A DNA stretch of 64,000 nt. It comes from Melampsora larici-populina 98AG31 (Eukaryota > Basidiomycota > Pucciniomycetes > Pucciniales > Melampsoraceae). Below, in pieces: positions 12,059 to 30,260 of this stretch; the first letter of the stretch is position 1; the number at the start of each line of letters is the position of its first letter. Made by a program: the position numbers and the translations under genes. The stretch covers positions 2,863,601 to 2,927,600 of the forward strand of contig NW_006768765.1 of NCBI RefSeq assembly GCF_000204055.1, given 5' to 3'. The notes beneath the pieces were generated by a model, which saw only the letters and a list, made by a program, of their open reading frames with translations, had not been told where the DNA came from and did no database searches.

Positions 12059-14616
12059 ATGATCATCCACACAAACAATTATCAAAACACCACTACTCCA
12101 ACAGAAACACGACATATCACCGTCCAAGTTATCTGTGAGTTCAGAAACTATGAAGTTCACCTCCAATTCAAAAGACTCAAAATGATCTCCGTTCCCAATG
12201 CTGATACCAAAATTAACTGTTTTATCTTATTATATAGTTGTAAGTCATCATCGACCCTATCAAATTGATTTTTTTGTTCGAATATCAACCTTGAAAACGC
12301 TGAAAATGATCACATTCTATCACAATTGATTGATTAGCCTGATGGAACCCAACCATTGTTCTTTAAACTCTCAAAAACTACAAAACTGATCAAAATATGT
12401 GATACCATTGCAGAAAACTATGGTATAAGTCGAGATAGACAGGCTTTTAGACTTCAATTTTTGGGCGAGACTTTGATACTAGATGGTTCAACACCTGAAG
12501 ATGTATGTCTTCTCTTTTTAAATTTCTTTATTGATTGAAACTGAGACTAATCTGATCTTGTTCTTTCGTGGCAGATGGGCATGGAAGACGGAGCTTGTAT
12601 CTATTTGTTTTGGATCAAGAGACTGGGAACAGCTGTCGGACCAGAAGGCGGAATTATTACCATTGGAGTCAAGTGTAAGTTCAAAATGATCAGATCGAGT
12701 TCTGAGTCGACCCAAACTTGTGAACATCGTATGCTTTTTTTGTTTGCGATTGTAATACTAACTTCAAATGTCTCAAAATTTATCATTTTCTTCATTATTG
12801 TAGTGGTAAGTCATAATTCGACTCACATCAAATCGAAACAATCTTCAAATCTCAACATCGGCAAGACTGACAATCATCAAATTCTATTCCCATTGCATTA
12901 GCCTGATAAGATTCAACCTTTGACCTTCAAAATCAACAAAACTTCGAAACTCGGAAAAATATATGATTACTTGGAAGGAAGCTTTCGTGACCGTGGAATT
13001 CAAAAGAATTTCAAACTTGACTTTCTTGGTCAGACTTTAGTTCCACATCAAACATCGCCTCGAGATGTACGTCTTCTCTTTTACATTCTTCTTTGATCAA
13101 AAATCTGACTATACTCCTTTTGTTCTTTTTGTCATTAGATGGATATGGAAGAGGGCGATTTTATGCATTTAGTTTGGGCTGATGAGCCGGTCCCAGTTAT
13201 TGAACCTCCAAGACCAGGTCTTACCCTCAGGATCAAGCGTAAGTCCAAGTGGTTTAAATTCGAAATCTGGATAATCAAATTATTTGAGGCGGATTCAACC
13301 CTTGGACATCATCTTTACAAGATATGAATGATTTTTGGATTGGATTGTGATGCCAGAACTTCGTCAAGACCCATCATCTTCAAGGCTAATTGTAAGTCAT
13401 GATTGAATTCACATCACTTGGAAAAATCATATAAGTCTTGACCTTAGAAAGAGCAATGAATATCAAATTCTTTTACATCTTTTAGCCTGATGAGAATGAT
13501 GGATTGTCATTAAAAGTTCGACCAACTGCAACCTTTAAATACATATATCAGGGAGTTGCAAAATATTACGGTGTCAGTGAAGGTGGAAATCCTTTTAGAC
13601 TTGTGTTTGATGATCGTCTTATACATCCAAACGATTCAACACCCAAAGATGTATGTTCTTTCTTTTGTTATTCCTCTTTTAATACATTCCCTTTTTGTAG
13701 CTGACTTATATCTTATATTTAGATGGGGCTGGAAGATCAAGATTGTGTGCATTTGATGTGGATTGCGATGCCAGGCGCAGTTGTTGCAGCACGAAGGCAA
13801 AATATCACACTCATAGTCAAGTGTAAGTTGGAATTCAAATTTGAACTTTAAGTCAACACCTCCGAATGATAAATTATTTGAGTCAAATTCAATTATTGAA
13901 CATTAACCCAACAACTTGGGATTTTTTCTTCGATTGAAAATTGTTAACATCCAATGTCATATAACGCACCATTTACAATCATTACAGTGGTGAGTCATCA
14001 CTAAATTCTTATTATAGAAAAGAACGTTCAAATTTCAACCTTGAAAAATACTAATCATCATCAAATTCTGTTAGAATTTCATTAGCCTGACAATAGCGAA
14101 CCCTTGATCTTGAAAGTTAAAGGAACTACAAAGATGATCAAAATATATAATGCAGTTGCAAAACAATTTGGTGTAAGTGGATATAGAGAGTATTTTAGAC
14201 TAATTTTCAAAGGCCAGTATATACGACCAGACCATTTAACGATTCATGATGTATGTTCTCTCTCTTTGTTCTTGTCGATTGTCACTTTTTTGTCATTGAT
14301 CTGAATTGGTTGGTTATGTTTAGTTGAAAATAGAAGATGAGGATTGTCTTGATTTCATTTGGGTTGCAGTACCAGGTCAACAATGTTCACTGCAAGTAAC
14401 TTGTAAGTTCAATAGATCTCAATCTCACTCGGATACAACTTTTTGAATGATTAGCGTTTTGAATCACTCATATCAGTCTAACAGTAATGAATTGTTCTGT
14501 TCTGTTTTGGAATATAATACTAACACAAACTTGCTCATTACCTGATGTTTTTTATTCCAGCTATGTGTCATCGTGAAATCTATGTCACACCAAAAGAGGT
14601 CATATCACCATATTGA
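12059..14616 (+). CDS. tandem SUMO-like domain protein, four-domain copy
   Basis: Each repeat has the SUMO/Rad60-SLD fold signature: a first strand (HITVQV or ITIGVK), PDxxxPLxFK, a helix (KLIKICDTIAENYGIS), FRLxFLGETLxxxxSTPED, then (M)GMEDGxCxYLFW. Domain exons are strikingly regular: 165-bp exons at 12338-12502, 12902-13066, 13486-13650 and 14086-14250, and 100-bp exons at 12575-12674, 13139-13238 and 13723-13822; the last is 79 bp (14324-14402). All joins keep frame only if 2-nt exons (12238-12239, 12804-12805, 13988-13989) are used; the second join seems to use a 23- or 35-nt exon ending at 13391. A final short exon (14561-14616) ends in VISPY. The product is about 400 residues. No Gly-Gly processing site is seen, so conjugation like true SUMO is unlikely; a SUMO-mimicking scaffold is possible. 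The start was chosen by comparison with the second copy. Confidence 0.75.
12238..12239 (+). other. putative 2-nt microexon (TT)
   Basis: The sequence reads TATAG, TT, GTAAGT. The exon before ends in phase 1 (ATC T) and the next begins CCT GAT GGA; the TT completes TTT (Phe) and restores frame. Confidence 0.6.
12804..12805 (+). other. putative 2-nt microexon (TG)
   Basis: The sequence reads TTGTAG, TG, GTAAGT. It joins GTC AAG T to CCT GAT AAG, giving VKLPDK. Skipping it puts TCC then a TGA stop in frame. Confidence 0.65.
13988..13989 (+). other. putative 2-nt microexon (TG)
   Basis: The sequence reads TTACAG, TG, GTGAGT. It joins GTC AAG T to CCT GAC AAT, giving VKLPDN; skipping it gives an immediate stop. 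Confidence 0.65.
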
Positions 14617-15214
14617 ATGATAGATGATTCATTCAATTGTATTATAATTTGATCAGCCTGTTCCAGCACATATGTCATGGATTTTGAAAGTTGGAGCGAG
14701 TAAAACATTTGTTAGGATGTAGGATTTAGTTGTGCAGAGCAATTTGATGGTAATCAAACCCATTTTGGACTTAACTGTGTTCATGAGATTTTAATAGCAA
14801 ATCAAGACCTCAAAATATCTGCCAGCATATTTACCTCGGACTTTTCCAATCAAGGTATTCTTTGATCTCAAACCTTGGATAGAATCTTTTAGAGGTTTGA
14901 GGAGGTGGAGGATGTAGTGTTTGAGGTCACTTTGTCAGAGGTGAGAGGAGTTTAGGTTCATTGATGTTAGTTGATTTCAGAGTCTTGGGGTTGAGTTGGT
15001 TTGTGAGGTGTTTGTTAAGTTAGGGATTTGTTGCAGTTTCTTGGGGTATGTTCATTGTGCATGGATGTCTTGAGGTGTTCTGAGTGGGCTTACTGCAAGT
15101 GATTTGTTTTAAAACTTGTGATGGTGCTTGTAGTGATTTGAATTTGACTTCTGCTGAAGTGGATGAAAAATTCAATAAGTTCTTTGATTTTTTTATATAC
15201 ATATTGTCTCATCA

Positions 15215-28042: not shown

Positions 28043-29529
28043 ATGGTGATTATATCTACTGTTTCTCATGATGTCGTGCCAGAAACACAACATATTTCAA
28101 TCAAGGTCGCATGTGAGTTCCTAAACTTCGATTTTGTTTCTTGCCAAAAATATCCTTCGAGTCAAATTGATGTTCGTTTTCGATTATGAGGCTAATTAGC
28201 GTTCCAAAATTGACTGTTTCTCTCTTATCATAGTTGTAAGTCTCCATTGAATTGATGTCGACTTGAAGGATGATTCGAATCAAACCTTGACTCAAGAAAG
28301 ACTGATCAGACATCACATTCGATCACAATTCTTTGATTAGCCTGATGAGATTCCACCCTTATACTTTAAAATCAAAAAAACTACAAAACTTACCAAAATA
28401 TACAATCACATCGCAAGAAAATATGGTGTAAGTCGACATGGAGGAGCTTTTAGACTAGAATTTTTGGGTGAAACTTTACGAGTAGATGACTCAACCCCTG
28501 AGGATGTATGTCTTCTCTTCAACTTTCTTTGTTGATTGAACATTTCTTTTTCACATGGCTGATCTGAGTTTGTTCTGTGGTAGATGAATATGGAAGATGG
28601 AGATTGTTTGTATTTGTTTTGGATTACGAGACCGGGAACGGCTGTTGGAGCAGAAGCAGAAAGTATCACCCTTAGAGTCAAGAGTAAGCGCAAGATGATC
28701 AGATTTGACTCTGTTCTAAATTGAACTCTTGAACATCGACAAGAGAAGCTATTTTTGTCGCAATCGTGATACTAACTTCACCTGTTTCAAATTTATCATT
28801 TGCTCTGTTATCTCAGTGGTAAGCCGTACTCAAATTCATAGCGAATGGAAACAGAAATCGAGTCTCAAGCCTAGCAAGACTGACAATTATCAAATTCTGT
28901 CCCAAATGACTTAGCCCGATGAGATTGAACCAATCTACCTCAGAATGAAAACAACTGCAAAGCTTTTCAAATTGAATAATATTATTGCAGACCAGTTGGG
29001 TGTAAGTCAAGATAGAAACATTTTCAGACTTGAATTTTTGGGCGAGACTTTAATACTAGATGATTCAACACCTCAAGAGGTATGTCTTTTGCTTGTGTTT
29101 TTGTCTCTGATCAAAACTTACCTTCTTTGATGACTCTTCTGAATTTGACTTTTTGTGTCTAGATGCATATGGAAGATTGGGATTGTCTTTATTTATTTTG
29201 GACTAACAGATCAGGGACTGATGTTGAAACACAAGGAGAAAATGGTACCATTGATGTCAGCGGTAAGTTCAAGACAATCTGATTTAGTTCTGAGCCAAAT
29301 TAAACTCTTGATCAATTACTCAACAAGCTATTTTTTGATCAACATTTACTGTCTTCTCTTGTCTTGCAGTGGTAAGTTGTAAATAAATTTATATCAAATT
29401 GAAAAGAATTATTGAAGTCCCAACCCAACAAAGACTGACAAGCATGAAATTGTCGTACAATTGAATTAGCCTGATGAGATTCAACCAATCTGGTTCAAAA
29501 TCAAACAATTGAAAAATTTATCAGTTTAA
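28043..29529 (+). CDS. tandem SUMO-like domain protein, shortened copy
   Basis: A paralogue of the 12059-14616 gene with the same architecture: 70-nt first exon (MVIISTVSHDV, first strand HISIKVA), 165-bp exons (28341-28505, 28915-29079), 100-bp exons (28584-28683, 29163-29262) and 2-nt exons at 28234-28235, 28817-28818 and 29370-29371. The domains read PDEIPPLYFKIKKTTKLTKIY, FRLEFLGETLRVDDSTPED, MNMEDGDCLYLFW and so on, about as close to each other as to the other gene. The third domain begins normally (PDEIQPIWFKIKQ), then a small indel shifts frame and gives a TAA at 29527-29529. It may make a two-domain protein of about 200 residues with a stub, or be a decaying copy. No Gly-Gly end is present. 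Confidence 0.65.
28234..28235 (+). other. putative 2-nt microexon (TT)
   Basis: The sequence reads ATCATAG, TT, GTAAGT. It joins GTC GCA T to CCT GAT GAG (VAFPDE). Same dinucleotide as the first join of the other copy. Confidence 0.6.
28817..28818 (+). other. putative 2-nt microexon (TG)
   Basis: The sequence reads TCTCAG, TG, GTAAGC. It joins GTC AAG A to CCC GAT GAG, completing ATG (KMPDE). Confidence 0.65.
29370..29371 (+). other. putative 2-nt microexon (TG)
   Basis: The sequence reads CTTGCAG, TG, GTAAGT. It joins GTC AGC G to CCT GAT GAG, completing GTG (SVPDE). Confidence 0.65.
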
Positions 29530-30260
29530 AAATGTGCTTGCAGAAAAGCTTAGTGTAAGTGGACATCAGGAAGCTGGGCAAGACTATACTAGAACACCTC
29601 AAGATGTAGCTGTTCTCTTTGTTTTTCATCTTTGATCAGAACACTTTTTTGTGACTGATCTGAATTTGCTTATTTGTAGTTAGATCAATTTGAGAGAAGG
29701 CTGATGGATTACCATTGGTGTCAAGGGTAAGTTCAAAGTTATCAAACTCAATTTTGAGTGAGATTGAACTCATGATCATCAGCTAAACAAGTGATTGATC
29801 TTTTTTGTTCAAAATTTAACATTTTCTCTCTTATTGCAGCTGTGAGTCATGATTAGATCCAGATCCAATTGAATTGTCTTGAAGTCTCAACCGTAGAAAG
29901 ACTGATGATCATCATCTTCAACTAATTCACTTCAAAAACAAAACAACTACCATGATTATCAAAATATATGATTTCCTTTCAAAAAAAATGACTAATGCAC
30001 TTTGAAATTAAAAAAAGTACCAAGATTATCATAATATATGATTTCCTTTCAAAAAAAATTGTACAAATGGAAATGAAAAGGCTTTTGAACTGTGGTTTTC
30101 TGGTGAGACTGTGATGCCAAATGAAAGAGCCCCTTAGGATTTATGTCTTCTCTTGGCTATTCTTCTTTGATCAAAAAGTGACTGATTTTGATTGGTTTTT
30201 TTCTTGTTAGGTGATTATGGAAGATGGGCAGTGCATTCATTCTGACGGACTGATCCCGGC
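29530..30260 (+). pseudogene. decayed SUMO-like repeats at the 3' end of the second copy
   Basis: Continuing the array in other frames, VLAEKLSVSGHQE and DYTRTPQD are remnants of domain three, with most of the FLGETL strand deleted. A later exon start (ATCAATTTGAGAG near 29684) and a join AAG G, AG-CT-GTGAGT near 29840 still show the pattern. Further relics (AFELWFSGETV near 30084, IMEDGQC near 30213) mark a fourth domain. Its upstream acceptor is lost and stops are frequent. Confidence 0.7.

Follow-up and report, generated by a model that had tools for sequence, protein, structure and literature searches.

Two genes made of tandemly repeated SUMO-like domains in Melampsora larici-populina 98AG31 and one further SUMO-like paralogue are predicted from the genome sequence to contain true exons of two nucleotides, a reading to which we assign a probability of about 0.87. 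The window analysed here is the whole 64,000 nt stretch of contig NW_006768765.1 from position 2,863,601 to 2,927,600 (GCF_000204055.1), and coordinates without a contig name refer to it. In both tandem genes a full domain is composed of a 165-nt exon, which starts with CCTGAT or a similar sequence in phase 0, and an exon of 79-100 nt, which ends in phase 1 and already contains the first strand of the next domain. When the dinucleotides are included, the frame of gene 1 runs for 403 codons to its stop and that of gene 2 for 221 codons; without them both frames are broken. The predicted proteins score 126.8 bits in four stretches (gene 1) and 60 bits (gene 2) against PF11976 (cut-off 23.8), and the C-terminal end of both is without di-glycine. 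A 396-nt DNA probe from gene 2 has at least three matches in the genome, those found all lying inside the window. The features of the two genes are as follows (+, forward strand).

12059-14616 (+): gene 1, a string of SUMO-like domains
12059-12134 (+): first exon, with start codon and beta1 of domain 1, ending in phase 1
12135-12237 (+): intron GTGAGT...TATAG, 103 nt
12238-12239 (+): predicted 2-nt exon TT, codon T+TT = Phe
12240-12337 (+): intron GTAAGT...TTAG, 98 nt
12338-12502 (+): domain 1, 165-nt exon, CCTGAT start in phase 0
12575-12674 (+): end of domain 1 and beta1 of domain 2, 100-nt exon
12804-12805 (+): predicted 2-nt exon TG, codon T+TG = Leu
12902-13066 (+): domain 2, 165-nt exon
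13139-13238 (+): end of domain 2 and beta1 of domain 3, 100-nt exon
13357-13391 (+): predicted 35-nt exon instead of a 2-nt exon, the middle AG being AA (..CTAATT, then GTAAGT)
13486-13650 (+): domain 3, 165-nt exon
13723-13822 (+): end of domain 3 and beta1 of domain 4, 100-nt exon
13988-13989 (+): predicted 2-nt exon TG, codon T+TG = Leu, donor GTGAGT
14086-14250 (+): domain 4, 165-nt exon
14324-14402 (+): end of domain 4, 79-nt exon
14561-14616 (+): last exon, with CT at the place of the 2-nt exon and the donor lost (CT-ATGTGT), continuing to TGA

28043-29529 (+): gene 2, a string of SUMO-like domains
28043-28112 (+): first exon
28234-28235 (+): predicted 2-nt exon TT, codon T+TT = Phe
28341-28505 (+): domain 1, 165-nt exon
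28584-28683 (+): end of domain 1 and beta1 of domain 2, 100-nt exon
28817-28818 (+): predicted 2-nt exon TG, codon A+TG = Met, donor GTAAGC
28915-29079 (+): domain 2, 165-nt exon
29163-29262 (+): end of domain 2 and beta1 of domain 3, 100-nt exon
29370-29371 (+): predicted 2-nt exon TG, codon G+TG = Val
29470-29529 (+): domain 3, shortened by TAA
29840-29841 (+): further middle site AG-CT-GTGAGT, ahead of a decayed domain

The sequence-only reading had proposed a dinucleotide between two introns at six joins, and these are present at exactly the positions it gave (12238, 12804, 13988, 28234, 28817 and 29370). At these joins the phase-1 end and the phase-0 start are separated by 203-263 nt, and every half is a complete GT-AG intron. 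Some particulars of that description have to be modified. The dinucleotide was said to lie exactly midway, which is wrong, since the six joins have first halves of 103-165 nt and second halves of 96-105 nt. The middle donor GTAAGT is found in four of the six, with GTGAGT at 13988 and GTAAGC at 28817. Direct splicing had been expected to give TCC followed by TGA in nearly every case; it does lead immediately to TGA in six of the seven window joins, but as TCC-TGA in only four of them (CCC-TGA and GCC-TGA account for one each), and at the 28817 join the stop comes one codon later.

Eight joins were examined, seven in the window and one in the unlinked paralogue, which is found on contig C6; the seventh window join (gene 1, 13239-13485) lies beyond the six originally listed. 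The first halves of the seven window joins are 103-165 nt long and the second halves 94-105 nt, the corresponding values in the C6 gene being 211 and 124 nt. Skipping of the dinucleotide breaks the frame in all eight joins and its inclusion gives an open SUMO-like frame in all eight. Retention of the first intron keeps the frame open only at the 12804 join, where the 129-nt intron (12675-12803) is without an in-frame stop and its retention would add 43 residues; retention of the second intron or of both leaves the frame open in none of the eight. The middle exon is followed by a canonical 5' site in all joins, and AG directly precedes the dinucleotide in seven of eight, the remaining join having AA and using the 35-nt exon. 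When the presence of a CTRAY branch word 8-75 nt ahead of the AG is taken as a crude measure, the halves resemble ordinary introns, since the rates in first halves (5/8) and second halves (6/8) are near that of undisputed introns (6/8); the word is absent from three of eight first and two of eight second halves. The spliced strings predicted with the dinucleotide are GTTATCTTTCCTGATGG, GTCAAGTTGCCTGATAAG (12804 join), GTCAAGTTGCCTGACAAT, GTCGCATTTCCTGATGAG, GTCAAGATGCCCGATGAG and GTCAGCGTGCCTGATGAG for window joins and GTTAAATTTCCAGATGCA for C6, with TT kept.

It is most improbable that each join is instead one long intron with alternative splice sites, in which the middle site would be a relic or due to chance. 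In a search of donors from -30 to +60 sharing at least four of six letters with GTAAGT, combined with YAG acceptors from -60 to +30, five of the eight joins gave no in-frame single intron; two gene 2 joins gave one weak solution each and the C6 gene gave three, and within this search no solution was common to the joins. The best of those in C6 leaves the donor unchanged and moves the acceptor by +4 nt (spliced string GTTAAATATGCATCAGAA); it reads KVKYASEEP, and so loses the residues PD which are kept in the related protein P0002, described below. Also, conservation is higher at the middle site than elsewhere in the introns. The reading as 2-nt exons is supported as the only one, within the searched range, which keeps the frame with signals common to the joins; it further foretells the residue of P0002, an independent relative, and recurs in the unlinked C6 gene. 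A stwintron was rejected, since in eight of eight joins the frame is lost when the whole stretch separating the large exons is removed, and so was a recursive splice site of zero length, as two letters are present between AG and GT in seven of seven middle sites. Two-step splicing through the same sites, raised as an alternative in the sequence-only reading, gives the same mRNA as 2-nt exons and differs only in the order of events, which sequence cannot tell.

Of 20,000 introns simulated so as to keep the neighbour frequencies, 57 (0.285%) contained AG-NN-GTRAGY with 45 nt or more between the motif and each end, a figure which is not raised to a power here because the joins are homologous, descended from each other and thus not independent trials. 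The whole window contains this motif 15 times on both strands, namely at the six joins, at 29840 and at eight other places. All 15 pairwise comparisons of the six window joins place the middle site in register; 8-10 of its 10 letters are identical, compared to 52-67% in the remainder of the introns.

The whole genome (98.3 Mb, 243 contigs) was searched for further genes, and this identified on contig C6 the third, unlinked SUMO-like gene. Its predicted exons are of 67, 2, 162 and 30 nt plus a last one, and its protein reads MTANSPAPDIKPKTQKITLKVKFPDASEEPLILKVK...EQVGGSHSRL, in which the C-terminal EQVGGSHSRL includes the di-glycine; the PF11976 score is 51 bits (cut-off 23.8). The 2-nt exon is TT, located between TCTAG and GTAAGT, and the codon it completes corresponds to that of the window genes. 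BLASTN comparison of the C6 introns with the window introns gave no significant match (best E 0.052). The words at chance level include the 11-letter middle site (E 0.18), and in only one of six pairwise intron alignments is the C6 middle site in register with that of the window. As the introns show no significant similarity, it is the shared codon position that relates the C6 site to those of the window.

The SUMO genes on contigs C11 and C87, as read by eye, have no intron at the dinucleotide codon, the nearest one in the C11 gene being about four codons upstream and in phase 0; the 2-nt exon is therefore a mark of one paralogue and the two tandem genes. The canonical SUMO gene (C11:1765000-1768500, reverse strand) has, again by eye, an apparent 13-nt exon at 2091-2103 (AGTGAAGCCAGAA) and an apparent 15-nt exon at 2170-2184 (AACACGCCGTTGGAC). 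Contig C87 carries three further SUMO-like genes at 221.7, 245.7 and 250.1 kb, of which the one at 250 kb seems by eye to have exons of 13 and 15 nt too. Small exons seem to be a habit of the SUMO family in this genome. On contig C22 (700500-704500) six ubiquitin-like repeats are found with starts 287-293 nt apart, which are perhaps a polyubiquitin with an intron per repeat.

The nearest named relative of the SUMO-like protein belongs to Melampsora americana (87% identity). At the protein level P0002 reads KVKFPDATEEP where KVKFPDASEEP is predicted for C6, a string derived from the genome before the P0002 match was seen, and the Phe of the join codon agrees. The source of P0002 consists of 14 contigs, each of at most 1201 bases and intron-free, with the source tag lgn, which we take to stand for assemblies of public read archives. 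As such short contigs encode a complete intron-free protein, P0002 is probably derived from the spliced mRNA of another rust. The M. americana gene model P0001 reads KVKCADSSEEP, with CA in place of FP at the two join residues, a difference which may be a work-around of the gene caller, a substitution or a loss. In the Puccinia coronata model P0003 no beta1 strand can be recognised ahead of SDGSEPL; this fits a missed junction and proves nothing. In more distant proteins (P0004-P0007, at most 40% identity) the residues at the join position are N, N, A and F. Pattern scans for relatives of the SUMO-like protein gave 45 stretches in genome contigs and 37 in viral contigs, none of which was confirmed.

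The suggestion that the codon formed at the join matches a buried strand position is not supported. In a sequence alignment the position adjoins the turn between beta1 and beta2, and the other SUMOs compared (the C11 and C87 genes, the human SUMOs and P0004-P0006) have D, G, A or N there, P0007 with F being the exception. A codon with T in second place can only encode F, L, I, M or V, so that the hydrophobic character of the residue is a consequence of the dinucleotide and adds no independent evidence.

Two joins deviate from the common pattern. In gene 1, where the middle AG of the 13239-13485 join is AA, an upstream AG gives the frame-keeping 35-nt exon. At the last join of both genes AG-CT is present, with a donor present in gene 2 (29840) and destroyed in gene 1 (14561); since the donor is lost at 14561 the exon runs on to a stop, and there the gene 1 protein ends. 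These variants (AA-TT with its 35-nt exon and CT with its lost donor) fit a working site in decay at either end. Behind both tandem genes broken remains of additional SUMO-like domains are found (14655-14720 and 29913-30240). Inheritance of the dinucleotide by repeat duplication had been proposed from the use of TT in first joins and TG in later ones; such inheritance fits the distribution, TT being found in the C6 gene also, but the arrangement goes beyond the repeat genes. The 2-nt exons have apparently spread by duplication.

Such signs of decay bear on the possibility that the tandem genes are degenerating or unexpressed, with middle sites that are inherited and unused, and that splicing of a 2-nt exon is confined to the C6 gene. 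The third domain of gene 2 is interrupted by a stop and broken domains follow, gene 1 has the odd 35-nt exon and a shortened end, a protein search with gene 1 found no relative (1877 candidates, 0 at E <= 1e-3), and dN/dS is near 1 between many repeats. We regard this as unlikely all the same, as the dinucleotides keep the 403 and 221 codons of the two genes open and their omission breaks the frames, and as dN/dS values between corresponding exons of the two genes are 0.36 (first domains of gene 1 and gene 2) and about 0.45. Among non-corresponding repeats the values range from 0.41 to 1.29 and are often near 1; the count did not include the C6 gene, which differs in length, or the incomplete third domain of gene 2. 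Corresponding exons of the two genes are clearly under purifying selection, which is not general among different repeats.

If the dinucleotides are exons, each join would consist of two ordinary small introns placed back to back. Recognition would follow intron definition, each intron being recognised across itself by its own 5' site, branch point and 3' AG. A distance of 2 nt separates the 3' AG of the first intron from the GT of the second, and since two spliceosomes could hardly be accommodated together there, the two introns would be removed successively and not simultaneously. The dinucleotide would provide bases 2 and 3 of a single codon between beta1 and beta2 of the SUMO fold, and the simplest source for the intron pair of the two tandem genes would be a parent resembling the C6 gene. 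What the sequences show is the anatomy of the joins, the frame, the recurrence of the arrangement in three genes and the agreement with P0002; splicing in this species, constitutive inclusion of the dinucleotide, the order of removal and the direction of descent are what we infer from these data.

The dinucleotide could also be an alternative exon acting as a switch, inclusion giving protein and skipping giving an immediate stop and mRNA decay, which we consider very unlikely. It is true that skipping leads to TGA at once, or one codon later, in every window join. In the C6 gene, however, a skipped transcript is read for 19 codons from the junction before the first stop, and in the window the stop follows from the frame without any selection, as CCTGAT is the start of the conserved exon encoding PD. 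Rather doubtful, if somewhat less so, is a broader proposal built on the 2-nt exons: that they are a standing heritable device of the rust SUMO family, fixed in one gene and multiplied with the domain to three per transcript, each with two ordered splicings, so that full-length protein would be made only when every dinucleotide is included, perhaps as a regulated check of splicing fidelity.

It had been held that exons of this size are barely known, which is so only in part, since 1-nt exons have been published (PMC4674806, PMC8831610, PMC12940212). In the matched passages of these papers, the 1-nt exon of APC11 in Arabidopsis is shown by RNA, with arguments for intron definition and sequential removal and the view that simultaneous splicing of introns so close is very unlikely (PMC4674806), and the 1-nt exon of APC11/VPS55 is followed across plants and is conserved in land plants (PMC8831610). 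As described there, the plant exons share with those of the rust that they are too small for exon definition, essential for the frame and missed by annotation; they differ in being of 1 nt and proven by RNA, whereas the rust exons are of 2 nt, up to three per gene in three genes, and predicted from sequence. A fungal case is the 1-nt exon of Fusarium CYP621A, confirmed by 18 RNA reads (PMC12940212), which according to the matched text was found by means of the frame and an intronless length marker. Unlike the rust exons it is of 1 nt (AG-G-GT) and belongs to one P450 family of an ascomycete, repetition within a gene not being described in the passages matched. The same text cites exons of 2-5 nt in Arabidopsis, Drosophila and human, a size class which takes in 2 nt. 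Fungal stwintrons, as far as the matched text goes, likewise undergo two consecutive splicing reactions within one apparent long intron; in them a splice element of one intron is interrupted by the second and presumably no exonic letter is left, whereas the rust joins must keep two. The microexon of Trichoderma Xlr2 is comparable as a microexon of a filamentous fungus, and differs in that its inclusion is described as regulated by glucose (PMC11121469). The wording '2 nt exon' occurs once in the matched text on HLA-F (PMC7725694). Among the literature matches listed, from a search outside which most subscription papers lie, none describes a 2-nt exon in a fungus or in a SUMO gene.

Given the proven 1-nt exons and the 2-5-nt exons cited in PMC12940212, the size of 2 nt is not new in kind. 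As far as the literature matches listed show, such an exon is new for a rust and for a SUMO gene, as are its predicted recurrence in up to three copies per gene and its spread with a protein domain. According to the matched passages, exons of this size escape annotation and aligners (PMC4674806, PMC8831610, PMC12940212), so that the gene models of a SUMO-like protein may be wrong in rusts; those of M. americana and P. coronata deviate from the prediction at or just ahead of the join. Three such exons in one gene, together with the variants which have lost the AG or the GT, would constitute a natural series on how the spliceosome handles sites 2 nt apart, and the same series would bear on the order of splicing and on the origin and duplication-borne spread of 2-nt exons.
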